The notes below the pieces were generated by a model, which saw only the letters and a program-made list of their open reading frames with translations, was not told the DNA's origin and ran no database searches. DNA of 64,000 nucleotides from Cytobacillus oceanisediminis. Its GTDB lineage: Bacteria > Bacillota > Bacilli > Bacillales > Cytobacillaceae. The stretch lies in assembly GCF_022811925.1 (NCBI RefSeq), contig NZ_CP065511.1, forward strand, positions 4,023,501-4,087,500, given 5' to 3'. Shown piece by piece: positions 1 through 15,458 of the stretch. The stretch's first letter is position 1; each line of letters starts with the position of its first letter. Both the position numbers and the translations under genes were made by a program.

Positions 1-89
1 AAATTTTTAACCGTTCTGTTAATCTATTAAAATTATAACATACGAATGAAGGAATTGAAGGGAACAAATGATGGGAAAATTAAATGAAA

Positions 90-120
90 ATTCAAAAGGG
101 CCCGAGTAAATTCGGGCCCA
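90..120 (-). terminator. Terminator of the yceG-telA-terD unit
   Basis: On the minus strand an 8-bp G+C stem (GGGCCCGA/TCGGGCCC, 98-119) with a 6-nt loop is followed by TTTTGAATTTTC. It lies just past the TerD stop. Confidence 0.8.
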
Positions 121-138
121 TGCCAATGGTTATCTTTA

Positions 139-750
139 TTAAGAATATGAACGCACAACATCTGATAGGCCTGGAGAAGCCGTTCCAGTGCCAACTGCAG
201 CAAACTTCCAATCGCCTCCATGGCGATAAATCTCACCGACAATTAAACTAGTTTTTCCGCTGTAATCATCTGAAAGATTGTATTTAATCAATTCTTGATT
301 ATTTCCCGAGTTAACGACACGGATGAATGCATTCTGAATCATGCCAAAATGCTGCTTTCTTTTTACACTATCATAGATGTTTACGACAAAAACCATTTTG
401 TGAACGTGTGCCGGCACTCTGCTTAAATCAATCATTACCTGCTCGTCGTCTCCATCTCCCGCTCCGGTAAGATTGTCCCCGGAATGCTGTACACTCCCAT
501 CACTGCTTTTTAAATTACCGAAATAAATAACATCTTTATTACTCTTAAGCTTTCCATTTTCACCAAGCATGATAACAGAAGCATCGCAGTCGATATTTGC
601 ACCGCCGCCGCCTCCGAATAAAGAGCCCAAGAGACCGCCGCCTCCGCTTTTTTGCACTGGATCCCAGCCTAATCCTACCATAATTTTAGATAATCCCGGA
701 TTTCCTTTAGTTAAGTCAACACGCTGGCCTTTTTGAAGATTTATTGCCAT
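139..750 (-). CDS. TerD-family stress protein with a glycine-rich insert
   Basis: A 203-residue TerD-domain protein. TerD domains are calcium-binding cytoplasmic proteins of the tellurite/chemical-stress (Ter) systems. The N-terminal QKGQRVDLTKGNPGLSK and VGLGWDP motifs and the later [14 protein letters not shown] acidic motif are typical. Unlike the second TerD in this window (9489-10070), the first metal-binding loop is interrupted at residues about 35-50 by a Gly-rich stretch (SGGGGLLGSLFGGGGGA), and the usual DLD after it is altered to NIDCDAS. It is the last gene of a three-gene unit after yceG and telA, with a 52-bp gap to telA. Family assignment is sure; which B. subtilis yceC/D/E paralogue it matches is not. 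Confidence 0.93.
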   Translation of the reverse strand: MAINLQKGQRVDLTKGNPGLSKIMVGLGWDPVQKSGGGGLLGSLFGGGGGANIDCDASVIMLGENGKLKSNKDVIYFGNLKSSDGSVQHSGDNLTGAGDGDDEQVMIDLSRVPAHVHKMVFVVNIYDSVKRKQHFGMIQNAFIRVVNSGNNQELIKYNLSDDYSGKTSLIVGEIYRHGGDWKFAAVGTGTASPGLSDVVRSYS

Positions 751-802
751 ATCAATTCCACCTCATCAATAATTTATATTTTATTTTAAAATGAGCAGCT
801 GC

Positions 803-1915
803 CTAACCCTGCTGCTTCATTTTTTTAAAATTGTCCTGCAGCTGTTCCAGTCTCCTGGTTCCTTCTTCACGTAAACGCTTGTTTTCTTCTTCTATTGATT
901 TTGTCTCCTGCATACCTTTCATGATGATATTCCAGGATTCCTCAATAGTTTCTATCTTAATGCTCGGGCCGCCTGCCAATCTTGCGATATCAGCACTTTG
1001 ATTAGAAATATTCTGGGCATTGCGCACAAGCATTTCATTTGTCCGTCTGTCCAGCTCGCTCATTGAATCTGCAACAAGCTTTTGTCTCTTTGCTGCCATT
1101 GCCTGAATCAGGCCATTCTTAAAAATTGGAATAGTGGTAACGAATGCAGAATTAATCTTCCCGATAAGCTTGGTATTGCCTCGCTGCAGCAGCCGGATTT
1201 GCGGTGCAGTCTGAAGGGCAACCATTTTAGCCATTTCAAGATCATAGACTCTTTGCTCCAGCAATTCGATGGCATTTCTTAACGTATCCAGCTGCATCGA
1301 AGCCATTTGATCCCCCTGAGCCGCCCGTGCTTCCAGCTGTGGAAGCTGATTGGCTTTTAAATCGTCGGCTTTAAGCTGTCCTGCCACAGCATATTTTTCC
1401 AGAGTCAGATAGTACTGATAATTTTGCTCATACATTTGTTCAAGCATGGTTGTGGAATCAACCATTTCACTTTGGTATTTGGATATTTCAACATAAACTT
1501 TATCAATTTCCGCGCCCATTGTCTGGTATTTTCCGAAAAGCTTTTCAATCATCTTTTCTCCCCGCTTGAAAAGCTTGCCAAAGATCCCTTTTGATCCTTG
1601 CTCGAAATCCTTCTTGTCAAATTTGTCCATAATTCTGCCGAGCTGTTTTAAAAGTTCACCTGAATCTTCAACCTTCGTTGTTCTCATGTTGCCCAGTATC
1701 TGATCGGAAAAGCGGGATATCTGGACAGCAGGCTCTTTACCGAATTCAAGTATTTGAATTTGGTCCCTCTCATCAATGGACCTGGCCAAGTTTTGGACCT
1801 CAGGCTCCTGCCTTAAAGCAAGCTTAATTTCTGATACCTTATTTTCGGTTAATTTATCATCCTGCACCTGGGTTGTTAAGTTCAAATCTGTTGCTTTAGT
1901 CGGATTCATTTTCAA
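803..1915 (-). CDS. yceH: TelA/YceH toxic-anion resistance protein
   Basis: A 370-residue soluble, largely helical protein of the TelA (KlaA/YceH) family, linked genetically to tellurite and other toxic-anion or antimicrobial resistance; its biochemical role is unknown. It has no membrane segments. Long heptad-rich helices fill residues 150-370, and the motif region ending VTTIPIFKNGLIQAM is characteristic of the family. The start overlaps the stop of yceG by 4 bp (ATGA), so translation is coupled. A TerD gene follows. The trio yceG-telA-terD mirrors the yce operon of B. subtilis in content though not in exact order. Confidence 0.93.
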   Translation of the reverse strand: MKMNPTKATDLNLTTQVQDDKLTENKVSEIKLALRQEPEVQNLARSIDERDQIQILEFGKEPAVQISRFSDQILGNMRTTKVEDSGELLKQLGRIMDKFDKKDFEQGSKGIFGKLFKRGEKMIEKLFGKYQTMGAEIDKVYVEISKYQSEMVDSTTMLEQMYEQNYQYYLTLEKYAVAGQLKADDLKANQLPQLEARAAQGDQMASMQLDTLRNAIELLEQRVYDLEMAKMVALQTAPQIRLLQRGNTKLIGKINSAFVTTIPIFKNGLIQAMAAKRQKLVADSMSELDRRTNEMLVRNAQNISNQSADIARLAGGPSIKIETIEESWNIIMKGMQETKSIEEENKRLREEGTRRLEQLQDNFKKMKQQG

Positions 1916-3555
1916 TCACCCTTTAAATTTTTTAAAAATCCTTGAAAGAGAACCTTCTTTAGAAAGGATGGCTCCTTAAATTCCTGTTCAAAAACAACAT
2001 CCTCAAGCCAATGGACATCATATAAAACTTCCTCAATGAAGTTTTCAATGTCGTTATGGCCCGGCGGATTATACAGTACAATATCCAGTCCAAACTGATT
2101 AAGCAGCAAAAGAAGAGCGGCATCTGATCTTACCATCGTCCCGTTCAGCTCGTTGTTATAGAGGATAATTTTAGGTACGTCCTGCGAGTAATCAAATTGC
2201 TGCATTAATTTTAGAATGCTCGGCGGAATTTGCAGGCTTTGGCTAAATAGATAAATTTTCAATTCCTCTTCCGATTCACTGGAAAGCGGCTTTAATTGCG
2301 GACGTTCACACATATTCCTAATGGCCATTGCAATTCCATTTTGCAGGCCGCCAGGAAGCTGCTGATACCTCCAATAGTGCCCTGCAATGATTTTTTCAGG
2401 GTCAAGCTTCCCCTCCCTGTCCAGTGCGTTGCGATAATGGAACCGAAAATCATTGTTGACGCTATTTGTAAAAGGAAATCTCCTTATCAGCAGACTTTCA
2501 TCATACTGGCTGATTGTTTGTATTCGATCCCAGTATTCCTTGCGGTTTCTGCTTACACCCTGGATCTTTGAAAATACGGAAGGTATCATAACCCTTCCAT
2601 CTTTCACCTCGAAGTTTGGGCGGATCATGGCTTTCTCTTTGATTAAAATAAAGAGTTCATCATAAGTGGTTTTCAAAGTCACAGAGGAAGGTGTATAATC
2701 CCGCAGCTGCCAGGGTTTATAAAGTCCTGAACCCTCATGGTTAAGAATAGTTTCGATTTCCCTGGATGCCCTATAGGCAACTGTAGCACTCCTTCTTCTC
2801 TTTTCTTGGGGAAAAGGCTCTGGCTTTTTCTTTTCAGGGTAATGATGAACAAAAGACTCCTGAACCAACGGCCCCATTTTCGCCGGAAGATCTTCCCCTG
2901 AAGGAGAAAAATAAAGAATATCGCACCCGATTTGAATTAAGTAGTACAAAAAATAAAAATGACTCTTTTTCCCATTACCGTACCATAGGATTTTTGGCAT
3001 GGCCATTTTGGGATCAATATCTTTAAGTTCTGTGCCCAAATGATTAGTGGACCACTTAATCACATCTACAAGCACTCTTCGGATATCCTGGTTTTTTAAT
3101 CCGGCTGGTTCATGTTCAGAAAAAAGTTTCAGCATACTGATCATCGCTTCTCTTATCTTCCTGTGCATAGAAGGTGAGGATGATTTAAGCAGCAGCTGTT
3201 CCCCATCTAGGAAGGCAGCAAAGCGGTTTATGGATAAATCCTGTTCCCGGTTAATGTTCAGGACTTTTTGTATCGCCTGAAACTGCTGATTATTAATGGT
3301 TTTATCCAGATGTTCTTCACTCAAAAGAAGAAGCCCTGCATTCTCTGTGTGAATAAGATCAAAAAGACGATTATAATATTCATCTTCATCGAGCGGAACT
3401 CCAAGAAACCTGGCCACAATCTGGCCAATATGCAAAGTTTGCTGTTCCTCTCTGTAACTATCACGCTCGTGATTAGGCTTTGTTAAGTGTGAGGTCCAAT
3501 TCTCATGTGTAACCTTTAAGATGTGAGTTTTGATTTGACTGTACGACAAGTTCAA
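1912..3555 (-). CDS. yceG: YceG-like Ter-system protein
   Basis: A 547-residue protein of the YceG family, found almost only next to TelA and TerD genes in Firmicutes. It appears duplicated internally: two similar segments (about 55-240 and 310-540) each contain a 'PKILWYGNG'/'PKIILYNNE' strand, a following 'CDILYFSPSG'/'LDIVLYNPPG' strand and a downstream acidic helix, suggesting two Rossmann-like halves. No catalytic motif is recognised. The start is a TTG with AGGGAAGGGAT about 6 nt upstream. It is the first gene of the unit downstream of an ECF-type promoter at 3714-3739. Function unknown; the link to metal or envelope stress is by neighbourhood. Confidence 0.88.
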   Translation of the reverse strand: MNLSYSQIKTHILKVTHENWTSHLTKPNHERDSYREEQQTLHIGQIVARFLGVPLDEDEYYNRLFDLIHTENAGLLLLSEEHLDKTINNQQFQAIQKVLNINREQDLSINRFAAFLDGEQLLLKSSSPSMHRKIREAMISMLKLFSEHEPAGLKNQDIRRVLVDVIKWSTNHLGTELKDIDPKMAMPKILWYGNGKKSHFYFLYYLIQIGCDILYFSPSGEDLPAKMGPLVQESFVHHYPEKKKPEPFPQEKRRRSATVAYRASREIETILNHEGSGLYKPWQLRDYTPSSVTLKTTYDELFILIKEKAMIRPNFEVKDGRVMIPSVFSKIQGVSRNRKEYWDRIQTISQYDESLLIRRFPFTNSVNNDFRFHYRNALDREGKLDPEKIIAGHYWRYQQLPGGLQNGIAMAIRNMCERPQLKPLSSESEEELKIYLFSQSLQIPPSILKLMQQFDYSQDVPKIILYNNELNGTMVRSDAALLLLLNQFGLDIVLYNPPGHNDIENFIEEVLYDVHWLEDVVFEQEFKEPSFLKKVLFQGFLKNLKGD

Positions 3556-3713
3556 TTTATATCCCTTCCCTCTATGAGCGAAAGATGCATTCTTATCATT
3601 TCATTCAAAAATGGCGTTTCAGTTCCCGGATAATGACACCGGAAAAAAATAGGTAAACTTATTACCATCATATCATAGGAATACAGCCTTTTTCTAAAAT
3701 GGTTTACTTTCTT

Positions 3714-3739
3714 TACGATTTAACAGGAAGAAAGTTTCA
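3714..3739 (-). promoter_or_regulatory. Sigma-W-type promoter of yceG-telA-terD
   Basis: Reading the minus strand, TGAAAC (3734-3739) is followed after exactly 16 nt by CGTA (3714-3717). This is the full consensus of ECF sigma-W promoters (sigma-M and sigma-X sites are similar). It lies about 160 bp before the TTG of yceG. An identical architecture precedes the TerD gene at 9489-10070. Confidence 0.85.
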
Positions 3740-3843
3740 GTTCAGCAGTATTTTTCATAGCTGAATAACCTCAAATGAATTTTTTCACCATTATTCCTGT
3801 CCCCGCATAAATTGGAGTACTCTGTGAAGGAAGGTGAATCTGT

Positions 3844-4092
3844 ATGAGGCTGTTATTTCGAAGAGTGAGATATCAGGGGATTGATCATGATCTGGATATA
3901 ATCAGGAGTATTTTATGTTCCAGTTCTTTTGTGTTTATTGACATCTTTTTCTGGTCATTAACCCTTGCTATTTTCACCTTTGCCATACACCAATCTATTG
4001 CCATCAGCAGTTTAACTTTTATAGGGAGCTATACTTCTAGTTTCTTTTTATTCATGCTTCTAAAAAAATGGCTGAGGGACCAGCCGGACTAA
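3844..4092 (+). CDS. Small membrane protein of unknown function
   Basis: An 82-residue protein I do not recognise. Residues about 22-47 and 52-73 are two hydrophobic segments separated by a short His/Gln loop, with basic ends (RLLFRRVR and KKWLRDQ), which suggests a two-helix inner-membrane protein with both ends cytoplasmic. The ATG has AAGGAAGGTGA 7 nt upstream, a strong ribosome site. It is transcribed against the surrounding Ter genes and converges on the HAD gene, with which it shares 4 bp at the stop codons. The divergent sigma-W-type promoter at 3714-3739 faces the other way. Confidence 0.6.
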   Translation: MRLLFRRVRYQGIDHDLDIIRSILCSSSFVFIDIFFWSLTLAIFTFAIHQSIAISSLTFIGSYTSSFFLFMLLKKWLRDQPD

Positions 4093-4889
4093 ACTCTCTC
4101 TTTAATATTATTTAAAATATCATTTAGAATTTCTTCCCCGGCTGCTGCCCCTATTTTATTTGAAATCGAGTAAGGATGTGAGAGGGCTGGATTAGCTGCC
4201 AGCTCACCATGGTTTGGGACGTATGGAAAATCGCAGAACTTTAAGAAATCATGGTCCAGAACTGAATCACCTGCTCCAAAAACAATATTTATTCCTTCCC
4301 GATTCTTAATAAATTTTACCGCCTCGCCTTTACAGATGGGATTTGGCATAAAATACAGTTTTCTCCCCTGAAGGGATATTCTCCAACCATAAGACTCAGC
4401 CAGCCTTACTATTTCCTCTTTGGCTGCTGTTGTTATTTGTTCATCCAGAATATAATAAAAGAAAAGATTTTCAGCCGTTTTTATTTTTCCGTTCAGTTCC
4501 AGGCATTGTGATCTGTCCATCATTTCCTCAAGCAATGCACACTCTGCCTTTAGACGCTTTCGGACTACGCCGGACCACTCCTCAAGAGGTTTTCCATGAT
4601 AATGGATATTTGCGCCATTCGATGTGATAGTGTACGGAATGTTAAGGTCATCCTGAAAAATGAAAATACGCTTATATTGTTCGTATGTTCTCGTTGTAAC
4701 AGGCACAAAAAGAATGTGAGCGGATACCTCTTTCAGCATCTTGAGCGCCTCGCTTGTCATAAAGGCCACTTCCCTGCCATCTTTACGCTCAACACCTATT
4801 AAATTTTCTTCTCCTGTCTGTCCAAAATCAGCTAGTGCTTTATTTGAGTAGATCAATGTCCTGTCCAAATCCGAAGCAAACATCCTCAT
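4089..4889 (-). CDS. HAD-superfamily phosphatase of the Ter biosynthetic module
   Basis: A 266-residue HAD hydrolase of the Cof/sucrose-phosphatase-like subclass (IIB cap). Motif I is DLDRT (nucleophile Asp7, acid Asp9), a TTR motif II lies near residue 82, a Lys near residue 195 and GAGDSVLDHDFL (about 206-217) is motif IV. It should remove phosphate from a small phosphorylated metabolite; the substrate is not known. Its ATG overlaps the TAA of the StiP gene by one base (TAATG). In Ter gene clusters such HAD enzymes accompany two phosphoribosyltransferases and a C-C bond lyase and are proposed to act in making a nucleoside-like compound; that role is inference from context. Confidence 0.88.
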   Translation of the reverse strand: MRMFASDLDRTLIYSNKALADFGQTGEENLIGVERKDGREVAFMTSEALKMLKEVSAHILFVPVTTRTYEQYKRIFIFQDDLNIPYTITSNGANIHYHGKPLEEWSGVVRKRLKAECALLEEMMDRSQCLELNGKIKTAENLFFYYILDEQITTAAKEEIVRLAESYGWRISLQGRKLYFMPNPICKGEAVKFIKNREGINIVFGAGDSVLDHDFLKFCDFPYVPNHGELAANPALSHPYSISNKIGAAAGEEILNDILNNIKERV

Positions 4890-5995
4890 TATTCTTCTCC
4901 CGTCTTTTTAATTAATCCACAGCATGTGTAGCTCATATCAGGAAAATGAATAATCTCGACATTCCGCTCCTTGGCCAGCATGACAATATGGCGAACATAT
5001 GGGCTTTCCGGGTCTTTTATCAGGATTTTCCATGGAAGCCTCCTCAGAAGAACCCTGGTGGTTTCTCCGACTCCCGGCTTTACAAAGTTTATAGATTCAA
5101 TTTTAAATTCCTCTTGTATTCTCTGAACTTCTTCCATGCCTTTAAAATTTGCTTCCCCCGGGTTTTCCATAATCTCGGCCGCAAGTTCAGCTGCTTCCTG
5201 TTTAATAGCCGAGAACTCCTCGGTAATCGCTGAGAGATAATGGTTTGAAACATCTGCTTCCTCCAGCTCAAAATAATATTTGGCGCCATGGAAATCTTCC
5301 GGACCAATTAAGGATTCATTTAATACTGTTCTGCTGACCAATCCTGAAACAGTAGAATTGAGGCAGGCACTTGGAATCAGAAAGTCTTCTCTTGTTCCAT
5401 AAAGTGTTGTGCAAAATCCTGGATCCGCAAGAACGGCCAAAGTGTCATCGAGAAGAACACCATAAAGTTCATGGAATTGTCTGCAGGCCTTGGTTAATTC
5501 AACAGAAATAGCCCCTTTGCCTGTCCATCCATCCACAAACTGAATATTGCAGCCAGGATGTGAGGTTAAGATATGCTTTATCGCATTTTCGTCAATCCCC
5601 CGGTCCCTGATAATGGAAATGCTGTAATGCGGCAATCTTACTCCATATACTTCATAAAGATACCGTTTTATCAGAATACCGACAGGCGTCCCAGCTCTGG
5701 CCAGGGAAACTAAAACCGTATTTTTTCCTTTTTGCTTCCAAATTTGTTCAGAAACCACTCCTGTGGACAATGCTGTTTTTCGTTTGTATTCATCAAGTGT
5801 TTCCCAAAACAGGGAAAGGTAATTTTCAGGAGGCTGGTATTCAATAGGAAGTGTTTCACTATAATGCTGACCGGACTGAATGTTTTTTTCCCTTTGCTCA
5901 ACGGATCCTTCAAGTGAATATCCGCTTAAATCCTTCAGTAAAAATACAACGTCATCTTTACTATATGAACCAAATTTATCTGCAATTCTATTCAT
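4889..5995 (-). CDS. StiP-type phosphoribosyltransferase-like protein with PELOTA domain
   Basis: A 368-residue protein whose first ~270 residues match the 'cysteine protease StiP'/PRTase-like family of Ter clusters (VLVSLARAGTPVG, SIIRDRGIDENA, FVDGWTGKGAIS), followed by a C-terminal PELOTA-type RNA-binding-like domain (about 300-365; RLPWKILIKDPESPYVRHIV, then DMSYTCCGLI). The family name StiP is historical; comparative work places it among phosphoribosyltransferase folds. I chose the ATG at 5995 because GGGGGTG stands 6 nt before it; an ATG five codons upstream lacks a site. The gene overlaps the preceding PRTase gene by 8 bp and the HAD gene by 1 bp, so it is one operon. The activity and any RNA partner are unproven. 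Confidence 0.87.
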   Translation of the reverse strand: MNRIADKFGSYSKDDVVFLLKDLSGYSLEGSVEQREKNIQSGQHYSETLPIEYQPPENYLSLFWETLDEYKRKTALSTGVVSEQIWKQKGKNTVLVSLARAGTPVGILIKRYLYEVYGVRLPHYSISIIRDRGIDENAIKHILTSHPGCNIQFVDGWTGKGAISVELTKACRQFHELYGVLLDDTLAVLADPGFCTTLYGTREDFLIPSACLNSTVSGLVSRTVLNESLIGPEDFHGAKYYFELEEADVSNHYLSAITEEFSAIKQEAAELAAEIMENPGEANFKGMEEVQRIQEEFKIESINFVKPGVGETTRVLLRRLPWKILIKDPESPYVRHIVMLAKERNVEIIHFPDMSYTCCGLIKKTGEE

Positions 5996-7361
5996 TTCTT
6001 TCACCCCCATTAAAGTAAACTATTTTTATATTCTTTATATATTTCTTTAATTGATTGATAAAAGGCATAAGTGAATCTTTTTCCGGCTCTCTTTCGAAAA
6101 ACAGGAATACTTCTTCATAATAGTCCTCTGGAATGTTATAAACAAATTGCGCCATTTCAGAGTCTTCAGGGTTTTGAAAGGAAATGCCGTAGTTGGCTCC
6201 ATAGTCATTCTCATTTCTTACAAAGATGGGACTGCGTGTTGTTGAGTGGAATTTTACGCCTTCCCCCATTAATGAGGCAAGTTTCATAGGGATATACATA
6301 AACTCCCCGGTTCCAAGACATAACGTATTCCTGCCATCCCGTTTTCGGGATAGGTATTGGCCGATCTCAGCTAATGACACACTTAATCTGGCTTGGCGTT
6401 TTGCATCCAGCCCGAAACGGCCAGAATCTTTTAAATAAGGAATAGTTCTGATTTCACCGCTTAGAGCAGCAGAAGGCTCATTCATCCGGCTTAATAGTTC
6501 AGGGAATTCATTATTTATACGAATATAAGAAATTAGCGCATCATTTCCTTTCAGTTCATCCGATGACTGACTTTCATGCACTTCAGGGGAACCCTTAACG
6601 TCGATCTCCCCTTTTAGAAGAGACACACTGTGAATAATAATGCCCAATTCTTTTTCGAGATCATCAAACAGAATCTGGTTTTTTAGGGAACGCCAATCCA
6701 GAATGGAGACGACTGTATAAATCTTTCTGGGAAAGCGTTCATGAATGGATCGGATGATATTAATAGCTGTTTTTCCTGTTGTCATTTCATCATCAACAAG
6801 AATGATCTCTCTCTTATTATCCAAAAGGCTTTCATCTGTGTAGCATCTGTGGGAAGTAGCATGGGAATGTTCTTCTTCAAATGTTATAACAGAATTCCTA
6901 TCAATCAGCTGCTCTCTTGTTGTGTGAAAGTAATCTGCACGTTTAAACGATTGAAAGAAAGCATGTCCAAGTGCCGTTGCTGTTTCGGCAAATCCGATAA
7001 TGACAGGGTTATGGTCTTCGTGAATAAAAGGACTGCTGTTCATGATGCCTGAGCCGTTTTTAAAAGCAGATAGAATCTCTGCGGCCTTTCCTGTCTCCAC
7101 TTTCTTCACCTTTTCCATATAACGGCTGGCAAGCAGTTCCCCTGTCAGGAGTCCGATTTGCGGATTAATCGGAATATGTTTCCCGAGTACTTTGCTGACA
7201 AATAAAAAGGATCTTTTTTTATTTATTCTTGCGGCCATGACAAACAAATCTTCAGGCGCCAGCTCATAAGGGTTATCGGTTATCTGTATATCAACGGTTA
7301 ACGAGTTGAGTATCTGAATTGAATGTTTCGTTTTTGAGTAGGTCAATGTATGTGATCTCAT
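5988..7361 (-). CDS. Phosphoribosyltransferase with TRSP domain
   Basis: A 457-residue protein. The N-terminal half carries a phosphoribosyltransferase core with the PRPP loop ILVDDEMTTGKTA (about residues 190-202). The C-terminal part (about 300-450) is the TRSP domain, with the LCLGTGEFMYIPMKLA and HSTTRSPIF motifs; it is named for conserved residues and always travels with such PRTases in Ter islands. It probably moves a ribose-5-phosphate between a base-like acceptor and pyrophosphate. Its start lies inside the upstream lyase gene (71-bp overlap), unusually long for this genome, but the reading frame and family length agree with the ATG used. The real substrate is unknown. Confidence 0.88.
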   Translation of the reverse strand: MRSHTLTYSKTKHSIQILNSLTVDIQITDNPYELAPEDLFVMAARINKKRSFLFVSKVLGKHIPINPQIGLLTGELLASRYMEKVKKVETGKAAEILSAFKNGSGIMNSSPFIHEDHNPVIIGFAETATALGHAFFQSFKRADYFHTTREQLIDRNSVITFEEEHSHATSHRCYTDESLLDNKREIILVDDEMTTGKTAINIIRSIHERFPRKIYTVVSILDWRSLKNQILFDDLEKELGIIIHSVSLLKGEIDVKGSPEVHESQSSDELKGNDALISYIRINNEFPELLSRMNEPSAALSGEIRTIPYLKDSGRFGLDAKRQARLSVSLAEIGQYLSRKRDGRNTLCLGTGEFMYIPMKLASLMGEGVKFHSTTRSPIFVRNENDYGANYGISFQNPEDSEMAQFVYNIPEDYYEEVFLFFEREPEKDSLMPFINQLKKYIKNIKIVYFNGGERNE

Positions 7362-8502
7362 CCTGCAGCACCCCGTATACTTCTGATTTTAATAATATTT
7401 TTCTAGCCCAATATAAATGGGGTTTAATCTCATTCATTTTGTTTTGGTAATCGCTTTTCATAACCCCTATTTTTCCGCCGGCCTGACCGGCGATGCTCTG
7501 TGCATCCAAATACTCTTCAAGGGTTACAGTATTCAATGCCTGTACTGGCCTAATATGGGTTGGATGGATAATGGTTTTTCCAGTTAAGCCATTTGAAATA
7601 TCCATCGCAATTTCTCTTATTAATCCGTCCATATGCCGATCAATCAAGTCCGTTCTCATTTTGAGCCCATCCTGCCCAAGACGTTCCCTGAATGGCGTCT
7701 GCCTAATTTGAGGCTTTAGAAGACGCTCCTTTGAGGAGAAATATTCCCATACCGGGCCTGAGATGACATATGGCTGATCGGAACGCAAAAATATATTAAT
7801 GATATCTGAGATACAATCTCTAATTACAGCAATATCGTATACGGTCGTATCTGAATTTCTTCTTATTCCGTACAAGCCGCTAAAATCCGTGGCTCCAATT
7901 CTCACATTCAGAATCAAATCAAAATTTTGGTCCAGCACTTTCTTAATGCCGATTAACTCCTCAAGCCTTGTTTCTTTTTGAATGATTTCTTTAGTTTCCA
8001 GAATCGGCATGGCATATAAACAATAACCATGAGAATTAAGCTCTTTAATTTCTGTTAAAATTTTGCATCCTTCAGCCGGTGAAAACTTAGGCAGAACAAA
8101 ACCAGTCAGGAGATGCATTCCATTCGGAATTCTGCTCTTGAGTCTCATAAGCTGATCATAGCTTCTGATTCGCACGAAGATCAAAGGGAGATCTTCTTCT
8201 TCACAAAGACCCTTCACAAGGTCCGAGCTCAAATTTTCCAATTCCAAACAAAGCCGATCTTCTGCCATTTCCACTTCATCATCACCAATTGCATCTTCAA
8301 GGCATATGACCATGGATGAAAGGCCTGCATGCTTTTTTGAGAGCAGATCCTGGTGCATATTAGGCCTTGTCGCCGGCATATATAAAGTTGCTCCAAGTGC
8401 GTATGCTAATAGCTCCCTGTCGGATCTCTTGTTAAAATAGCCTGGCTTTTTATAAAACATCTTATTTATTTTTTCATCCGGAAGATCGGAAAATAGTCTC
8501 AT
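7291..8502 (-). CDS. C-C bond lyase (HpcH/citrate-lyase beta-like) of the Ter module
   Basis: A 403-residue enzyme of the HpcH/HpaI aldolase-citrate lyase beta superfamily in the Ter-associated 'C-C bond lyase' branch. Visible are MVICLEDAIGDDEV (about residues 61-74, acidic metal ligand), LIFVRIRSYDQ (Arg for carboxylate binding), TGFVLPKF and the long ILNVRIGATDFSGLYGIRR segment. It should cleave or form a carbon-carbon bond next to a carboxylate, with Mg2+. It is the first gene of the lyase-PRTase-StiP-HAD unit and has GGAG about 9 nt before its ATG. A hairpin after TerC (8560-8598) separates it from the TerD(2)-TerC unit, but read-through is possible because no clear promoter of its own is visible. 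Confidence 0.88.
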   Translation of the reverse strand: MRLFSDLPDEKINKMFYKKPGYFNKRSDRELLAYALGATLYMPATRPNMHQDLLSKKHAGLSSMVICLEDAIGDDEVEMAEDRLCLELENLSSDLVKGLCEEEDLPLIFVRIRSYDQLMRLKSRIPNGMHLLTGFVLPKFSPAEGCKILTEIKELNSHGYCLYAMPILETKEIIQKETRLEELIGIKKVLDQNFDLILNVRIGATDFSGLYGIRRNSDTTVYDIAVIRDCISDIINIFLRSDQPYVISGPVWEYFSSKERLLKPQIRQTPFRERLGQDGLKMRTDLIDRHMDGLIREIAMDISNGLTGKTIIHPTHIRPVQALNTVTLEEYLDAQSIAGQAGGKIGVMKSDYQNKMNEIKPHLYWARKILLKSEVYGVLQDEITYIDLLKNETFNSDTQLVNR

Positions 8503-8559
8503 TTATTCAGCTCCATTCCTTCACTAAAATACTAACATCTTCCTTTTTTACCCAAAAAA

Positions 8560-8598
8560 GATAAAAATAAAAGGGAGCGGACAATTGTCTGTTCCCTT
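8560..8598 (-). terminator. Terminator after terC
   Basis: Minus-strand stem AAGGGAACAGAC/GTCCGCTCCCTT (8571-8598, two wobble or mismatched positions) is followed by TTATTTTTATC. It lies between terC and the lyase gene. Confidence 0.7.
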
Positions 8599-8628
8599 CT
8601 TAACTCAATACAGTTACATTATTTAGAT

Positions 8629-9402
8629 TCAGCCCTGATCTGCAGCTTCTTTTTTTGCATTCCTCGCATGTACAATAAAAGTAATAGCAAACACGATAAC
8701 CAATACTATAAAGAAGTAAATATGGTCGATGTGAATACCAGCCGCACTCGCAAGCATCTTAGCAGCAATAAGAAGGATCAGAATATATGAGCTGGTTTCC
8801 AGCTCCGGCACCCTGTCAATCAGCTTCAAAAATACGCCAGCTACACCACGCATCATGATAATACCAAGCATACCGCCTATTAACAGCACCCAGATTTCCT
8901 GGCTGACTCCAAGCGCAGCCAATATACTATCGATGGAAAATGCAATATCCATCAATTCAACTGCAATGACAGTTCCCCAGAAAGTACCGAAAAGGCGGAT
9001 TAATAATCCTCTTTGATTGATACCTTCTATTGCATGTTCATCACCTTCCTCCTCAGCTTGCCGCTTATCAATAAAATACTTAATGGCAAGCCAAGCCAAG
9101 TAGGCAGCACCTAAGACCTTGATATACCAGAATTCAATTAAAAATACACCGATGCCGATTGCAATAAATCTGAAGAAGTAAGCACCTAAAAGACCGTAAA
9201 AAAGAGCTTTCTTCCGCTGTTTTTCCGGTAGGTGTTTTACCATTACAGCAAGAACAAGCGCATTATCAGCAGATAATAGGCCTTCTAGAATTACAAGTGT
9301 CCCTATCAGTGCCCAGCTTTCCGGCTTTGATAAAGCTTCAACCCACATTTCCCAGTTAAAGAACTGAGAATATGTATGCAAAATAGATTCTAATATTTCC
9401 AT
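8629..9402 (-). CDS. yceF: TerC-family integral membrane protein
   Basis: A 257-residue protein with about seven membrane helices and the TerC signatures: LLSADNALVLAVMVKHLPEK in the second helix region and LMDIAFSIDSILAALG in the fourth. Acidic residues inside helices (SADN, MDIAFSID) are the proposed metal-binding sites; TerC proteins are implicated in metal (manganese) efflux at the membrane and in loading exported metalloenzymes. GGGAGGAAT precedes the ATG. The gene follows TerD(2) with an 86-bp gap holding a weak hairpin, so terC expression may be partly attenuated relative to terD. Confidence 0.95.
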   Translation of the reverse strand: MEILESILHTYSQFFNWEMWVEALSKPESWALIGTLVILEGLLSADNALVLAVMVKHLPEKQRKKALFYGLLGAYFFRFIAIGIGVFLIEFWYIKVLGAAYLAWLAIKYFIDKRQAEEEGDEHAIEGINQRGLLIRLFGTFWGTVIAVELMDIAFSIDSILAALGVSQEIWVLLIGGMLGIIMMRGVAGVFLKLIDRVPELETSSYILILLIAAKMLASAAGIHIDHIYFFIVLVIVFAITFIVHARNAKKEAADQG

Positions 9403-9440
9403 TCTAAATTATTCCTCCCGGTGATGTCTGCTTTTTCATA

Positions 9441-9464
9441 TAAAAGACCCGGCATTGCCGAGCC
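9441..9464 (-). terminator. Weak hairpin between terD(2) and terC
   Basis: Minus strand GGCTCGGC-AAT-GCCGGGTC, an 8-bp stem with two G-T pairs, followed by TTTTATATG. It may be a partial terminator that lowers terC relative to terD. Confidence 0.5.
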
Positions 9465-9488
9465 TTATTAAGCAAATATACCTCTTAT

Positions 9489-10070
9489 TTATCCAACCTG
9501 TAAACCAAAATCTTTTGCCAGTGCAGCCAATCCGCCCTGATATCCGCTTCCGATTGCACTGAATTTCCATTCTCCGTTATGTCTGTATAATTCTCCAACT
9601 ACAAGTGCAGTTTCAATTGAGAAGTCTTCACCCAAGTCATATCGGATCAATTCTTCGCCTGTATCTTCATTCAGAATTCTTGCATAGGCATTTGATACCT
9701 GTCCAAAGTTCTGATTGCGGGCTTCACCGTCATGGATGGTGATTGTGAATGTAATGCGCTGAACGTTTGCTGGCACATTAGCCAGGTCAATTTTCACCTG
9801 CTCATCATCGCCATCCCCTTCACCTGTACGGTTATCTCCAGTATGTACAACTGAACCATTAGCGCCTGATGTATTGTTGTAGAAAACAAAGTCGCTTTCA
9901 GAAGTTACTTTTCCAGTATCTCCAAGCAGAAATACGGAGGAATCCAAATCAAAGTCATTTCCGCCATCATATTTATTCGTGTCCCATCCAAGTCCTACTA
10001 CTACCTTACTCATTCCTGGATTTGTTTTTGTTAAGTCAACTTTTTGTCCTTTTGATAAGCTTACTGCCAT
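9489..10070 (-). CDS. TerD-family stress protein
   Basis: A 193-residue standard TerD-domain protein, the normal length for the B. subtilis YceD/YceE group. Conserved stretches are [41 protein letters not shown] (first Ca2+ site with the aspartates intact), [19 protein letters not shown] (second acidic loop) and [16 protein letters not shown] at the end. It is a cytoplasmic calcium-binding protein of the Ter stress response. It is the first gene after a perfect ECF-type promoter (10108-10133) and has GGAGGT about 10 nt before the ATG; terC follows. Confidence 0.95.
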
Positions 10071-10107
10071 TTCAACTCAAACCTCCATTATGTAGAATAA
10101 ATGTTTT

Positions 10108-10133
10108 TACGGTATAAATCATGAAAAGTTTCA
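10108..10133 (-). promoter_or_regulatory. Sigma-W-type promoter of terD-terC
   Basis: Minus strand TGAAAC (10128-10133), 16 nt, CGTA (10108-10111): an exact ECF sigma-W consensus, 38 bp before the TerD ATG. Yce-type ter genes of B. subtilis are known members of ECF and general-stress regulons, which agrees. Confidence 0.88.
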
Positions 10134-10179
10134 TAATCCATAAAAATATTTTTTCATATTCCAGAATTTATTTCAATCT

Positions 10180-10767
10180 TTAAGTCATCCATTTTGGCGG
10201 AGTGTTTTTATTCCAGTAAATTGATCCAAGTTCATGGTGGGCCTGAAAATTATCATGGTGTGTGTGATAGTGAAAATTAAACCAGTATCCCTGCTGTGGA
10301 GGATGGTCCCTTCTTACATGGAAGCGAATGACATCTTCATTCGCCTTGCTATTGGTGATATGGAAGATTTTTTCCGACAATCCGCCCCCCGGTGTTTCTG
10401 TAACCTTTAAGTGAGCAAGGCTTTCTTCGGGAAATTGCACCGCCACCTCCTGGATGGCTTTCTCAATATTCGGAAGTATTACCTCGTTAAACTCATCTTC
10501 AATAACAGGGCCTATCTTTGCGCCAAACTTCTCATACGATTGTGCCTCAGCTTCTATAAGCATTTGCCTGATAAAGTCTTCTTTATCAAAATTAATATCT
10601 TCCTCTTCAGCAAGTTCTGCACTGTTTTCTGAGTTTTCCACATCGGAAGCTCTAGAGGCTTTTAACTGGCTGGTATTTTCATATAGAAATGCCTGAGAAG
10701 GTGTGACGAGGCCAAACGTTAAAATGGTAACAAGTACAACAAAGGATTTTCTCAGCCAATTCGGCAT
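10180..10767 (-). CDS. ypjP: YpjP-family exported protein
   Basis: A 195-residue protein matching B. subtilis YpjP, of unknown function. It begins MPNWLRKSFVVLVTILTFGL, a positively charged and hydrophobic signal peptide or anchor with likely cleavage after PSQA (about residue 26). An acidic helical region follows (about 40-110). The C-terminal 50 residues are rich in His, Trp and aromatic residues (NFHYHTHHDNFQAHHELGSI), which could bind metal. AAGGAAGGCG precedes the ATG. It lies 20 bp after the aminotransferase gene and is probably cotranscribed with it. Confidence 0.85.
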   Translation of the reverse strand: MPNWLRKSFVVLVTILTFGLVTPSQAFLYENTSQLKASRASDVENSENSAELAEEEDINFDKEDFIRQMLIEAEAQSYEKFGAKIGPVIEDEFNEVILPNIEKAIQEVAVQFPEESLAHLKVTETPGGGLSEKIFHITNSKANEDVIRFHVRRDHPPQQGYWFNFHYHTHHDNFQAHHELGSIYWNKNTPPKWMT

Positions 10768-10787
10768 GTTTTTCGCCTTCCTTTCTA

Positions 10788-11966
10788 CTAAGCAAGGATT
10801 TTCTTAAGTATGCCACTTTTTTCAATATTTGCGGCAGCCTGCCTTAATACACTTTCGTGCTGTACAAGTGCAATCCGAACATATCCCTCACCCCATTGGC
10901 CAAAAGCACTTCCAGGGGTTACGACTACGCCGGCGCGGTTAATTAAGTCAACCGCAAAATCCCTGGAGGAGCTGTATCCAGATGGAACCTCGGCCCACAA
11001 GAACATTGACCCCTCTGGCTTGACGATATCCCACCCGATATTTTTCAGCTCTTTTAATATTACATCTCTTCTTTTTCTATATGTTTCTCTCAAGTCCTGC
11101 AAAAAAGATGACTGATCATTCAATGCTTTCACTGCAGCTGACTGCACCGGCAAGAATACTCCATAATCCAAATTGGATTTGAAATTGGCCAGCAGCGCAA
11201 TAAGCTGCTGATTACCTGCGGCATATGCCACCCTGCAGCCTGCCATATTAAAACTTTTTGATAGTGAATTCATTTCAATCCCTACATCCAAGGCCCCTGC
11301 AACAGACAAAAAACTTAGAGGTTTCTTCTCATAATAAAGTTCCGAATAAGCAAAATCATGCAATACTGCAAAGCCGTACTTCTTTGCAAGATGAATTGCC
11401 TGAAGGAAAAACTCCTCTGTCGCCATCGCAGGAACAGGATTGCCGGGGAAATTCAGGATCATTAATTTCGTGTTTGAGAGGATCTCTTCAGGGATTTCAT
11501 CAAAATCCGGAAGGAAGCTGTTCTCCTTTTTTAATGGCATGCCGTACATTTGTGCACCAGCCATTGCTGCACCTGCAGCATAAGCAGTATATCCTGGGTC
11601 CGGAACAAGGATATAATCTCCAGGGTCACATAGAACCATCGGCAAATGAACCAGCCCATCCTGGGAACCCATTAAAAGCAGCACCTCTGAAGATTCAAGG
11701 TCCACTTCAAAATTCCGTTTATAATAGTTGCTGACTGCAGAATGAAATTCATTTGTGCCTGTTAACGAGTACCCATATAATTCTGGCTCCCGGGTTCCTC
11801 TTGCTAATTCCTCCATAACAAAAGCGGGAGGGGGCAAATCAGGACTGCCAATGCTCAAATCAATCATCGGAAACCCGTCTGAAAGTTTAGAATTCTTAAT
11901 TTGGGCCAATTCCGCAAAAACACTTTCCGGAAAAGAAGCCATTCTTTTTGAAATAGGAAATTCCAT
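10788..11966 (-). CDS. Class I/II PLP aminotransferase (LL-DAP aminotransferase-like)
   Basis: A 392-residue fold-type I aminotransferase. Recognisable are the substrate-side motif DLSIGSPDLPPP, the LLLMGSQDGLVHLP and ILVPDPGYTAYAAGA cofactor regions, NFPGNPVPA and the PLP lysine in EMNSLSKSFNMAG (about residue 230). It is close to the LL-diaminopimelate/MtnE/YugH-like group of Bacillus enzymes, most of which transaminate amino acids with pyruvate or 2-oxoglutarate; the substrate is not decided by sequence alone. I use the ATG at 11966 because AGGAAGG lies 7 nt upstream; the longer frame starting at 11993 would put that site inside the gene. ypjP follows. Confidence 0.85.
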   Translation of the reverse strand: MEFPISKRMASFPESVFAELAQIKNSKLSDGFPMIDLSIGSPDLPPPAFVMEELARGTREPELYGYSLTGTNEFHSAVSNYYKRNFEVDLESSEVLLLMGSQDGLVHLPMVLCDPGDYILVPDPGYTAYAAGAAMAGAQMYGMPLKKENSFLPDFDEIPEEILSNTKLMILNFPGNPVPAMATEEFFLQAIHLAKKYGFAVLHDFAYSELYYEKKPLSFLSVAGALDVGIEMNSLSKSFNMAGCRVAYAAGNQQLIALLANFKSNLDYGVFLPVQSAAVKALNDQSSFLQDLRETYRKRRDVILKELKNIGWDIVKPEGSMFLWAEVPSGYSSSRDFAVDLINRAGVVVTPGSAFGQWGEGYVRIALVQHESVLRQAAANIEKSGILKKILA

Positions 11967-12173
11967 AGTATCCTTCCTCGCTATGTATCTCAATTCTATT
12001 TTTCTATTATACTTCTTTTCGAACCAAATTTAAATTGATTTCATGTATCGTTAAAAAGAACAATAGATATATAGTGAAAAATATAATTGCCGGATTATAA
12101 AGCAGCAAAACGGGAATAATAGGAACAAATCTTGTTCTTCAAGCCGAGGAAAATGAAAAAGGGGGAAATTCAG

Positions 12174-12251
12174 ATGGAATGGTCACTTGTCTTTGTTATT
12201 GCAAGCCTTTTGCTGATGGCTTACTTTGTTTACCTGGCCATCGCAGATTAA
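12174..12251 (+). CDS. Possible 25-residue single-helix membrane peptide
   Basis: MEWSLVFVIASLLLMAYFVY followed by LAIAD and TAA: a single hydrophobic helix with an acidic end. AAGGGGG lies 9 nt before the ATG, and an in-frame ATG seven codons upstream (12153) is an alternative start. A strong hairpin terminator follows at once. The length resembles small regulatory or structural membrane peptides such as KdpF or oxidase-associated peptides, but I cannot assign it. Confidence 0.5.
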   Translation: MEWSLVFVIASLLLMAYFVYLAIAD

Positions 12252-12290
12252 ATAAGAAGGTGCCTGGTATTCAGGCACCTTTTCTTATTT
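12250..12290. terminator. Bidirectional terminator
   Basis: A long stem, AATAAGAAGGTGCCTG with CAGGCACCTTTTCTTATT, with U-tracts readable in both directions. It serves the small peptide gene (plus) and the ypiP-type methyltransferase (minus). Confidence 0.85.
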
Positions 12291-13058
12291 TTCAATTATA
12301 CCAAAATGAAATTTCGATGACTTTCTTTCAATTACTTTGAAGCCATATCGGGCAAACCTGGAACTTCTAAAGTGATCCTTCAGAACTACTCTCTGTCTGG
12401 CTGCTCTTTTTGCATGAAAAATAACTTCCTCTGACAGGTCCTCATAAACAGCAAAGTTCCTTAGTGCTTTAATCCCCTCTGACTCAAGGATTTTTTCTTC
12501 AAACATGGGATCAAAATAGACAACATCATAACTGTCAGGGGGCAATTTTTTCAAATAAGGAAGGGCCATTGAGGATTCCACCTTTATTCTTCTCATTGCC
12601 TGATTCATACTCTCAAGTCCCGAGTCCCATTGTCTAAGCCCATTCGCCACCAGGAAGGAAAGATATTTATTTCCTTCCAGTCCTGTAACTTTGCCTTTAC
12701 TCCCTGCTGCATAACTGGCTGTTATGCTGTCCGAGGCCAGTCCAAGGGTACAATCGAGAATACTGCTGCCTTCTTTAAGCCCGGCGGCCTGAAGAAAAGG
12801 ATCACCCTCTCCTTTTTGGAGACGTTTTACTCTGAACATCGCTGAACTGGGATGAAAGAAGAATGGCTGGCTTTCACCAACCGGAAAAAGCTCCAAACGT
12901 TCTTTTCCAACTACTATGCAGTCTTCAGGAACTTGTTTTTGGATCATTCCTACAGACCTTTTATTCCTGCTGATATATTCTGCTCCCAATTGTTCGGCCA
13001 TTTTTTTTGCTTTTTCTACCATTGCTTCATTGGTGCGTCCGGCAGTTGTAATAATCAT
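12285..13058 (-). CDS. ypiP: YpiP-like class I SAM-dependent methyltransferase
   Basis: A 257-residue protein of the YpiP family, related to the rRNA methyltransferase RsmJ group. Central motifs are SSILDCTLGLASDSITASYA (SAM motif I region, about residues 98-117), VTGLEGNKYLS (acidic ribose contact) and YDVVYFDPMFE (motif IV with DPMF, about 175-185), typical of N6/N2 nucleic-acid base methyltransferases. The substrate is probably RNA but unproven. The ATG at 13058 has AGGTGA 5 nt upstream; the GTG at 13067 lies within that site and is rejected. It stands between the small peptide and the bacilliredoxin gene, as ypiP is near yphP in B. subtilis. Confidence 0.82.
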   Translation of the reverse strand: MIITTAGRTNEAMVEKAKKMAEQLGAEYISRNKRSVGMIQKQVPEDCIVVGKERLELFPVGESQPFFFHPSSAMFRVKRLQKGEGDPFLQAAGLKEGSSILDCTLGLASDSITASYAAGSKGKVTGLEGNKYLSFLVANGLRQWDSGLESMNQAMRRIKVESSMALPYLKKLPPDSYDVVYFDPMFEEKILESEGIKALRNFAVYEDLSEEVIFHAKRAARQRVVLKDHFRSSRFARYGFKVIERKSSKFHFGIIEK

Positions 13059-13137
13059 TATGATCACCTGAATTTCTTAATCTTGCTATAAGAAAAGGGT
13101 GCCAGCAGACACCCCGTTTTGTTTCATCTCTTTATTC

Positions 13138-13572
13138 TCAGCAATTCGCCTCAAAAGCAGCAAGAAGATTTTCCATGATCGCTTCCATGGAATGGTCTTC
13201 AATATCATGGCGGTGAATGAAGTGTACAACTTCCTTCCCTTTTAAAAGAGCCATAGAAGGTGATGAAGGCTCATATCCATCAAAGTACTCGCGCATTTTA
13301 GCTGTTGCTTCTTTATCCTGTCCTGCAAACACCGTCACTAAATGATCAGGTTTTTTTTCACTGCGTAAAACGGCCTGTGTTGCAGCCGGTCGAGCCAGTC
13401 CAGCGGCACAGCCGCAAACTGAATTGACAACCACAAGAGCTGTCCCTTCAAGACCTTCCATAAACTGCTCTACACCTTCTGAAGCCGTCAGCTCTTTAAA
13501 ACCTGCCTGTACAAGCTCCTCACGCATCGGCTTTACCATTTGTTTCATATATTCTTCATATGCCATAGACAT
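13138..13572 (-). CDS. brxA: Bacilliredoxin BrxA (YphP)
   Basis: A 144-residue thioredoxin-fold protein nearly identical in layout to B. subtilis YphP/BrxA. The active site is NSVCGCAAGLARPA, the CGC motif at residues 53-55 that removes bacillithiol from oxidised proteins in the cytoplasm. The C-terminal part (FAGQDKEATAKMREYFDGY, then SPSMALLKGKEVVHFIHRH) holds the rest of the fold and a C-terminal Cys. The length equals the family's. It lies downstream of ilvD in the same direction, as in B. subtilis. It implies the organism makes bacillithiol. Confidence 0.95.
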   Translation of the reverse strand: MSMAYEEYMKQMVKPMREELVQAGFKELTASEGVEQFMEGLEGTALVVVNSVCGCAAGLARPAATQAVLRSEKKPDHLVTVFAGQDKEATAKMREYFDGYEPSSPSMALLKGKEVVHFIHRHDIEDHSMEAIMENLLAAFEANC

Positions 13573-13733
13573 AATATTTGCCTCCTCCTCAAGCTGAAGT
13601 TTGTAAAGTAAGCATACTATATCGTATGATCTTTATGCAATTTTTCTATGCCGGGTATTACTGTCTATTTATCGTTAAATTATGGTTTTCTAATTTCAAA
13701 TCATATACATTAGAGCCAATTGCTTTTATCAGC

Positions 13734-13765
13734 AAGAAAGCCAGTCATAAATGACCGGCTTTCTT
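13734..13765 (-). terminator. Terminator after ilvD
   Basis: Stem AAGAAAGCCGGTCA/TGACTGGCTTTCTT with a 4-nt loop on the minus strand directly after the ilvD stop. The U-tract is part of the stem. Confidence 0.7.
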
Positions 13766-13772
13766 AACATTA

Positions 13773-15458
13773 TTAAATTTTCATAACGCCGCCTGTGCTG
13801 GCATTAGTCACAAGCTTCGAATAACGGGCAAGATACCCTTTTTTGACCTTTGGCTCGAAGCCTTTCCAATTGGCTTTGCGTTTTTCAAATTCTTCATCTG
13901 AGATTTCCAGGTTAATTGTACGGTTATTCAAATCCAATTCAATGATATCTCCATTTTCCACGAATGCAATAGGCCCGCCTTCAGCAGCCTCTGGAGAGAT
14001 GTGTCCAATGCTGATTCCCCGAGAAGCGCCTGAGAAACGGCCATCTGTAATCAGGCCGACTTTTGCCCCAAGTCCACGGCCGACAATCTGGGAAGTAGGT
14101 GCAAGCATCTCCGGCATTCCAGGCCCTCCTTTAGGACCCTCATATCGAATGACTACAACATGGCCTTCCTGCACTTTGCCGGTAATGATTCCGGATAATG
14201 CCTCTTCCTGCGAATCAAAGCAGATGGCTGGTCCTCTATGGTATCCGCCTACTGACTCATCAACAGCACCGACTTTTATAATTGAGCCTTCAGGAGCAAG
14301 ATTTCCAAACAGAACTGCCAGCCCGCCGCGTTCAGAATGTGGATTCTCCAAAGTTCGGATTACATTTTTATCCAGGATTTCACTGCCTGCTACATTCTCC
14401 CTTAGCGGCTTTCCGGTAACTGTCAGACAATCTCCATTCAGGGCGTCCGGCTTTTTAAGCAATTCATTAATGATCGCACTTACTCCACCGGCATTATGAA
14501 CATCTTCAATATGATAATCTGAAGCAGGAGCAATCTTGGCTAAATGCGGAACCCGGTTAGCAATCTCATTAATACGTTCAATCGGATATTCAATTTCGGC
14601 TTCGTGAGCAAGTGCCAATGTGTGAAGAACTGTATTGGTTGACCCGCCCATTGCCATATCCAGGGCAAACGCATTGTCAATTGCATCAATTGTAACAATA
14701 TCGCGAGGCTTGATGTCTTTTTTGATTAATTCCATCAGCTGCTTGGCTGAACGTTTAACAAATTCTTTTCTCTCTTCTGATACTGCCAGAATCGTGCCAT
14801 TGCCAGGAAGCGCAAGACCCAGTCCTTCTGCAAGGCAGTTCATGGAATTTGCAGTGAACATCCCGGAACATGATCCGCAAGTCGGACATGCAACCTGCTC
14901 AATTTCCAGAAGCTTTTGTTCATCGATTTGTCCAGATTCAAAGGCACCTACACCCTCAAAGACAGAGCTTAAAGATAAAGGTTTTCCGCTTGAATCAACG
15001 CCAGCTTTCATAGGGCCTCCGCTGACAAAAAGGGTTGGAATGTTAACCCTTAAAGCCCCCATCATCATTCCAGGCGTAATTTTATCGCAGTTCGGGATAC
15101 AGACCATTCCGTCAAACCAGTGTGCAGAAACAACGGTTTCAAGTGAGTCTGCAATGATTTCGCGGCTTGGCAGAGAATAGCGCATGCCAATATGGCCCAT
15201 AGCAATTCCATCATCTACTCCAATGGTATTAAATTCAAATGGAACGCCACCTGCTTCACGGATTGCTTCTTTAACAATTTTACCAAATTCCTGCAAATGC
15301 ACATGTCCAGGTACGATATCAATATAGGAATTGCACACAGCAATAAATGGTTTTCCGAAATCTTCTTCCTTTACTCCGGCAGCACGCAGCAAGCTGCGGT
15401 GCGGAGCCCTGTCTGTTCCTTTTTTGATCATATCACTTCTCATCTGTGAGCCAGTCAT
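13773..15458 (-). CDS. ilvD: Dihydroxy-acid dehydratase
   Basis: A 561-residue IlvD, the family's normal length. It dehydrates 2,3-dihydroxy-isovalerate and 2,3-dihydroxy-3-methylvalerate to the keto acids in valine, isoleucine and leucine/pantothenate synthesis. Iron-sulfur ligands are visible in [11 protein letters not shown] (about 119-129) and [19 protein letters not shown] (about 190-208), and [24 protein letters not shown] and [10 protein letters not shown] are family signatures. CGGAGGT precedes the ATG by about 10 nt. It stands alone here, away from other ilv genes; no T-box or clear CodY box is visible in the short leader. Confidence 0.97.

Follow-up and report, generated by a model that had tools for sequence, protein, structure and literature searches.

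The biosynthetic module associated with Ter genes, described by Anantharaman, Iyer and Aravind in 2012, is said to have been predicted to make a nucleoside-like metabolite. The same protein families lie beside TerD, TerC and TelA in a 64,000-nucleotide stretch of the Cytobacillus oceanisediminis genome (contig NZ_CP065511.1, positions 4,023,501 to 4,087,500; the whole of this stretch is hereafter the window; host genome 5.58 Mb, two contigs), which was analyzed here. A survey of jumbo phages repeats the idea, proposing that phosphoribosyltransferases (PRTases) and HAD enzymes make a signal, which TerD and TerB sense (PMC7824862). Both plasmids and chromosomes commonly carry Ter operons, which published work ties to tellurite, colicin and phage resistance and to gut fitness. 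No product is named for the Ter biosynthetic module in the literature searched, in agreement with a sequence-only reading that preceded this analysis.

The module in the window consists of four overlapping genes, given here with lengths in amino acids (aa) and Pfam scores:

7291..8502, minus strand: C-C bond lyase of the CitE/citramalyl-CoA lyase type, 403 aa (PF15617, 403.6 bits)
5988..7361, minus strand: PRTase_2 and TRSP domains in one protein, 457 aa (PF15609, 229.2 bits; PF12500, 138.3 bits)
4889..5995, minus strand: StiP-PELOTA protein, 368 aa (PF11202, 356.2 bits; PELOTA_1, PF15608, 119.4 bits)
4089..4889, minus strand: HAD phosphatase, S6PP/HAD-IIB-like, 266 aa (PF05116, 29.8 bits, cut-off 20.3); its score with the HAD-IIB model TIGR01484 is below the cut-off of that model

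Comparison with the 2012 module shows that the PRTase_2-TRSP protein, StiP-PELOTA, the PF15617 lyase, the HAD gene and the linkage to TerD, TerC and TelA are all present. The Ter ATP-grasp, a frequent but not defining component, was not found, and the locus differs further in that YceG and TelA genes follow and that sigma-W-type promoter matches precede the genes. Lactococcus plasmid pFI430 contains the same run of lyase, PRTase, StiP, HAD, YceG, TelA and TerD. The Klebsiella and Pseudomonas Ter loci also contain all four genes, but with an added ATP-grasp and in a different order, while Acinetobacter phage ME3 contains only PRTase, HAD and StiP. The sequence-only reading recognized these families as known from Ter clusters, which holds, and proposed an undescribed pathway, whereas the locus is a typical member of the module predicted in 2012. 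It is an ordinary-looking copy of a widespread bacterial stress-response module that probably builds a ribose-containing small molecule.

The structure model of StiP (predicted local distance difference test score, pLDDT, 92) matched PRTases in a structure search, namely PyrR, HGPRT and CriT, so that two PRTases are likely encoded in the module. With its L7Ae-like C-terminal domain, StiP appears to be the second protein of predicted PRTase fold, and by this modeled fold it would belong with the type I PRTases; the set of enzymes is likely two PRTases, a lyase and a phosphatase. Type I PRTases (APRT, which resembles PRTase_2, and PyrR and HGPRT, which resemble StiP) share with the module proteins a common predicted fold and motifs resembling the pyrophosphate loop and the phosphoribosyl pyrophosphate (PRPP) loop. 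The loop motif [FL][VIL]DGWxGKGxI was kept in all 86 StiP sequences compared, and D155, K160 and D191 were invariant in 67 aligned sequences; a divergent StiP outside both sets (locus L095) contains R in place of K160. Unlike type I PRTases, which have a vicinal acid pair (D-D or E-D) in the PRPP loop, StiP has D155-G156, also invariant in the 67. A comparison of StiP with PRTase_2 by hhalign gave no support for sequence relatedness, the likeness being one of fold.

In Pfam (PF11202) and in product names at NCBI, StiP is called a cysteine protease, which would make the module partly proteolytic. No StiP cysteine is invariant: the best columns, C211 and C358, contain Cys in 82 of the 86 sequences and give way to Ile and Ala in members from enterobacteria, pseudomonads and phages. 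The model matches PRTases, and phosphoribosyl transferase is a further product name in use, seen for P0011 and in phage ME3. Cysteine conservation and the fold match together rule the protease assignment out for practical purposes, and we consider it extremely improbable. No protease was noticed among the matches listed in the StiP structure searches, which was not counted as evidence. As to the origin of the StiP name, PF11202 is not named in the main text of a paper on papain-like proteinases. A weak, unannotated StiP match (H43, 24.4% identity) occurs on a Klebsiella plasmid.

The PRTase fold would also suit a PyrR-like sensor, which binds PRPP or a nucleotide and regulates RNA without acting as an enzyme: PyrR is among the nearest folds, StiP has an RNA-binding-like tail, and its PRPP loop has lost one acid. 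The invariance of D155, K160 and D191 and the universal loop motif argue against this role, as does the repeated fusion of StiP to an active-looking PRTase within a biosynthetic operon, and we regard it as very unlikely.

Ribosylation of glycan acceptors by StiP is another reading, by comparison with the influenzae type b capsule polymerase Bcs3. Glycan PRTases (CriT/gPRT) are defined by two separated acids replacing the DD motif, by helical bundles and by a glycan acceptor. The CriT-CrpP pair of Bcs3 and the Thermobacillus protein 7shg have, like StiP, a PRTase fold, a HAD partner and a single acid in the PRPP loop, and CriT too is without the vicinal pair. In contrast, the StiP profile gave no PDB match to them up to E 1, the HAD proteins matched different models, and the module adds an L7Ae-like tail, a second PRTase and a lyase. 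Glycan ribosylation appears unlikely as the function of the module.

The C-terminal domain suggests a further alternative, in which PELOTA docks StiP on a structured RNA and the PRTase domain ribosylates it, or inserts a base made by the other enzymes. PELOTA_1 scores 119 bits, and in the StiP profile a GxxExTR block, with E311 and R314 invariant in 67 sequences, aligned with L7Ae/eL8/eS12 in 10 of the 13 PDB matches up to E 1. A search of solved structures with the single StiP sequence returned only L7Ae/eL8 rows, aligned to the tail (best E 0.14). Against RNA modification, the profile matches are not significant (E 0.13 at best) and three of the 13 are ribosomal L24; RNA binding by PELOTA is a prediction; the domain reaches only 12.5 bits in L095, under the 25-bit cut-off; and in positions 1-16000 of the window no match to Rfam was as high as the gathering score of its family, so that no riboswitch or other RNA was found near the module. 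We consider RNA modification quite unlikely.

The catalytic motifs of PRTase_2, the lyase and the HAD enzyme are intact. The sequence-only reading had named a conserved loss of catalytic residues as grounds for giving up its proposal, and no such loss was found in these three proteins; StiP shows D-G for D-D. A profile of 65 lyases matched CLYBL (5vxc, E 9.7e-9) and CitE-type lyases, with aligned LED and GKxxIHP blocks, although the Ter lyase forms its own Pfam family and is longer. E169, D206, R111, K309 and H313 are invariant in the 65; we take E169 and D206 to be the metal-ligand Glu and Asp and R111 the substrate Arg of CitE-like lyases, positions assigned from the family, so that by sequence these residues are in place. 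PRTase_2 models as an adenine-PRTase fold and has a PRPP loop of the type I kind. In the HAD alignment, from which frames over 340 aa were excluded, D7, D9, T65, K187 and D212 were kept in 79 of 79 sequences and D208 in 78. Single-sequence searches of solved structures gave none up to E 0.1 for the lyase and PRTase-TRSP, and trehalose phosphatase (E 1.1e-5) for the HAD protein. When six proteins were scanned against known defence models, the only match was a weak one of PRTase_2 to PRTase_III-A (PADLOC, 20.5 bits), a model presumably linked to retron PRTases.

To define the arrangement of the genes among relatives, genomes were scanned for StiP, giving at least 597 stretches, 595 of them confirmed, of which the best 80 loci were kept and 79 used (L053 was left out because it shares both its genome and its gene lengths with L051). 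As the best-scoring loci, these are mostly from Bacillota, with some from actinobacteria. StiP was also present in 2567 of 72,556 plasmid records. The order lyase-PRTase-StiP-HAD occurred in 64 of the 79 genomic loci. PRTase and StiP were fused in one protein in 12 others, followed by HAD in 11 and placed at a contig end in one; each of four such fusions scanned carries all four Pfam domains. One locus, which lies at a contig start, has PRTase-StiP-HAD. A quick tree of 85 StiP rows requires no fewer than 8 changes of fusion state and no fewer than 6 changes in whether the locus contains an ATP-grasp. TerD was in the locus in 75 of the 79, and the four exceptions are all short stretches (11.7-13.5 kb). 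In the Klebsiella (L007, 9021-15731) and Pseudomonas (L008, 5811-12731) loci, the lyase is shorter (315-318 aa) and the order unlike that of Bacillota; a trypsin-like peptidase is listed in L008, flanked by the ATP-grasp and the PRTase.

A smaller form of the module was found in L095 (G386:C18, 4369-7288), where a divergent PRTase-StiP-HAD run with a barely recognizable PELOTA lies beside TerD, possibly as a separate subtype. This genome, of the same phylum, is 99% complete and gave no match to the PF15617 lyase anywhere, whereas the lyase is present in the other eight of the nine module genomes asked. Phage ME3, with its order PRTase-HAD-StiP, likewise has no lyase match in its whole genome. 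TRSP is absent from both PRTases, by Pfam and by the TRSP motif. This joint loss in two cases suggests a concerted action of lyase and TRSP, with two PRTases and a phosphatase providing the core chemistry. Among 84 PRTase-bearing loci, TRSP motif and lyase occur together in 81; the exceptions are L005 (neither), L059 (lyase without motif) and L067 (motif without lyase, at a contig start).

The strand and helix order of TRSP, read from the DSSP line of the model, repeats that of the PRTase, and the TRSP and PRTase profiles gave a weak match in register (P 0.011; score 21.06 against 20.87 for the best of 38 decoys, none higher, the decoys having been cut as overlapping windows from three alignments in both forward and reversed direction and so not being independent). 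This is only suggestive of TRSP as a PRTase copy. Together with the loss of lyase and TRSP in L095 and ME3, the strand order and the weak match are the grounds for a more specific alternative, in which the module core would be a PRTase chain: an active APRT-like domain, TRSP as a degenerate PRTase copy, and a PyrR/CriT-like StiP with an RNA-binding-type tail. The signal that TerD reads would be a doubly ribosylated (ribosyl-ribose) nucleoside, and the minimal form would be PRTase-StiP-HAD, exemplified by phage ME3 and a genome of clostridial type. We consider so particular a scheme rather improbable.

The sequence-only reading noted that the ATP-grasp partner is absent from the window, which was borne out, and none was found in the rest of the genome, where all 15 candidates were scored. 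PF15632 matches in this genome reach 38.9 bits, in frames of 1051 aa (1.65 Mb) and 1076 aa (2.0 Mb), lengths that fit the large chain of carbamoyl-phosphate synthase. A profile of 12 Ter ATP-grasps gave 33.6 bits for a 458-aa frame and 30.3 bits for the 1051-aa frame, compared with 450-531 bits for Ter ATP-grasps elsewhere.

This absence was placed in context with 199 genomes of the window's order. StiP occurred in 32, PRTase_2 above its cut-off in 32 (16 further genomes were below it) and the full-length Ter lyase (at least 287 bits) in 32, other CitE-like matches of up to 82 bits occurring in 16 more; StiP, PRTase_2 and full-length lyase occupy the identical 32 genomes. TerD was present in 40, including all 32. 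The Ter ATP-grasp was found in 12, all among the 32, and in none of the other 20 module-bearing genomes; at most ten candidates per genome were scored here and at most seven in the phylum sample below, so a weak one could be missed. Six module-free genomes matched the ATP-grasp profile at 94-194 bits and were taken to have other ATP-grasps, the closest decision being that on G015, at 194 bits. In G168 and G125, ATP-grasp and module are on different contigs. A sample of 299 genomes of the phylum, which overlaps the order sample in at least three genomes (G000, G043 and G082), contained TerD in 16, StiP in 15 of those and the ATP-grasp in five of those (256-509 bits); in G386 the StiP match was only 80 bits. 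The chance of 12 falling within 32 of 199 is 4e-11, and of five within 15 of 299 is 2e-7, uncorrected for kinship. We read these distributions as layers, with the Ter core first, then the module, and the ATP-grasp outermost. Since the ATP-grasp is nested within the module genomes, its absence here is that of an accessory, ordinary and not a gap; the nesting rules out an incomplete pathway for want of an ATP-grasp. In G105:C69 the PRTase match is interrupted by two in-frame stops and the StiP frame is short, from decay or sequencing error, and not all 32 modules need therefore be working.

Gene order, PRT-StiP fusions, the PRTase folds, co-occurrence, intact motifs and the suggestion of a single transcription unit were counted in favor of a PRPP-fed pathway to a ribosylated, dephosphorylated nucleoside-like metabolite used by the Ter system, to which we give about an even chance. 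The four genes would form a soluble biosynthetic unit converting PRPP, with steps proposed from fold, motifs and co-occurrence. The APRT-like PRTase_2 domain would attach ribose-5-phosphate to a base-like ring, and the CitE-like lyase, probably with TRSP, would make or trim a carbon side chain of the ring. StiP, in complex with PRTase_2, may then transfer a second phosphoribosyl group, either onto the product of the first step or onto an acceptor hydroxyl, and the HAD enzyme would take off the 5-phosphate(s). The product may act with TerD and TerC at the membrane during envelope stress, and the ATP-grasp of some genomes could add a further, optional group of amino-acyl type.

Several points weigh against this pathway. 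None of the four enzymes has a known activity. The Foldseek E-values for StiP are modest, with aminotransferases in the top two rows, and D-G in place of D-D or E-D in its loop makes catalysis uncertain. Two of the 79 loci (L055, L062) have StiP-HAD with neither PRTase nor lyase nearby, and eight of the 40 TerD genomes of the order are without the module. The genes terZ-F alone rendered E. coli MG1655 tellurite-resistant (PMC8115787), and the module is therefore not needed for tellurite resistance. That TerD is the receptor of the product is something we infer only. Lastly, an imperfect GC hairpin with a T-rich run, seen by eye and absent from the terminator scan, lies between terC and the lyase gene (about 8597-8550, minus strand); it is a possible partial terminator or attenuator, and terC and the module may therefore not be transcribed equally.

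StiP as a PRTase and the nesting of TerD, module and ATP-grasp make the chemistry of the module concretely assayable via PRPP, for which the natural PRT-StiP fusions and the lyase-free three-gene form are the smallest sets. The structural match of StiP to PRTases, the PRT-StiP fusion, the three-layer nesting and the joint loss of lyase and TRSP were not found in the literature searched, and parts of this may be in print already.

The gene coordinates and Pfam scores support the four families and the overlaps of 71, 8 and 1 bp described from the sequence. The lyase and PRTase genes overlap by 71 bp (7291-7361). In the structure model of the PRTase, confidence is high from about residue 11 on (block means of 90 and 96 over residues 11-30), and residues 12-17 form a beta strand encoded within the lyase frame; because confidently folded residues are coded there, the overlap is supported and is not just a mis-called start. 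The PRTase and StiP genes overlap by 8 bp if StiP starts at the ATG at 5995, preceded by GGGGGTGAAAGAA, and by 23 bp if it begins at the first in-frame ATG, at 6010. StiP and HAD overlap by 1 bp (TAATG).

The module lies between TerD and TerC genes upstream and, after a gap, YceG, TelA and TerD genes downstream, as the sequence-only reading had placed it. The flanking genes and candidate regulatory sites are:

10108..10133, minus strand: sigma-W-type promoter match, TGAAAC-N16-CGTA, upstream of terD-terC-module (consensus match)
9489..10070, minus strand: TerD (PF02342, 290 bits)
8629..9402, minus strand: TerC, a YkoY-family membrane metal protein (PF03741, 180.7 bits; TIGR03716, 257.8 bits)
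4070..4085, minus strand: terminator-like hairpin with a T tail, after the HAD gene (consensus match only)
3714..3739, minus strand: second sigma-W-type promoter match, upstream of yceG-telA-terD (consensus match)
1912..3555, minus strand: YceG (PF14266, 392.3 bits)
803..1915, minus strand: TelA (PF05816, 366.6 bits)
139..750, minus strand: TerD, second copy (PF02342, 267.1 bits)

The two promoter sites, ahead of terD and yceG, are the only matches to TGAAAC-N15-17-CGTA in the 64 kb, compared with 0.10 expected; none of 100 shuffles reached two. With CGT[AC] allowed, the 79 genomic relatives (1.57 Mb) contained 55 matches on the module strand and 8 on the opposite strand. Each of the 19 loci L010-L028 has one match whose next recognized same-strand gene is TerD, at a distance of 784 bases in L021 and 100-260 in several others. 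The same motif precedes a TerD in related Bacillaceae loci, and many of the more distant loci have no match. These consensus matches make envelope-stress regulation of the locus, as the sequence-only reading suggested, a reasonable prediction. The B. subtilis yceCDE-meeF operon is described as being expressed constitutively, with additional induction by stress sigma factors (PMC10550928). The promoter match at 10108-10133 and the hairpin at 4085-4070 suggest a single terD-terC-module transcription unit; the terminator scan of the region returned 10 such sites, compared with 8.0 expected.

Neighbor clusters recurring in at least 6 loci comprised TelA-like, XpaC-like, vWA, ABC-ATPase-like and clostridial P-type-ATPase-like proteins and plain chromosomal genes, read from first residues; none of them names a substrate. 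L009, a human-gut scaffold deposited as phage, contains a PRTase, StiP, an opposite-strand lyase, a 757-aa YceG, TelA and three TerD genes alongside ordinary bacterial genes; no HAD gene matched the profile, and the scaffold may be bacterial DNA deposited under the wrong label. A protein of about 870-910 aa, read from its sequence as P-type calcium-ATPase-like, adjoins clostridial-type modules in L048, L049, L059, L068, L074, L076 and L082, and in L095 (7991-10591). The host genome contains a single StiP match and, away from the module, a second TerD pair and two frames of 479-500 aa holding a TerD domain (G000:C1:2661089-2662348, 646227-646778 and 798503-799054).

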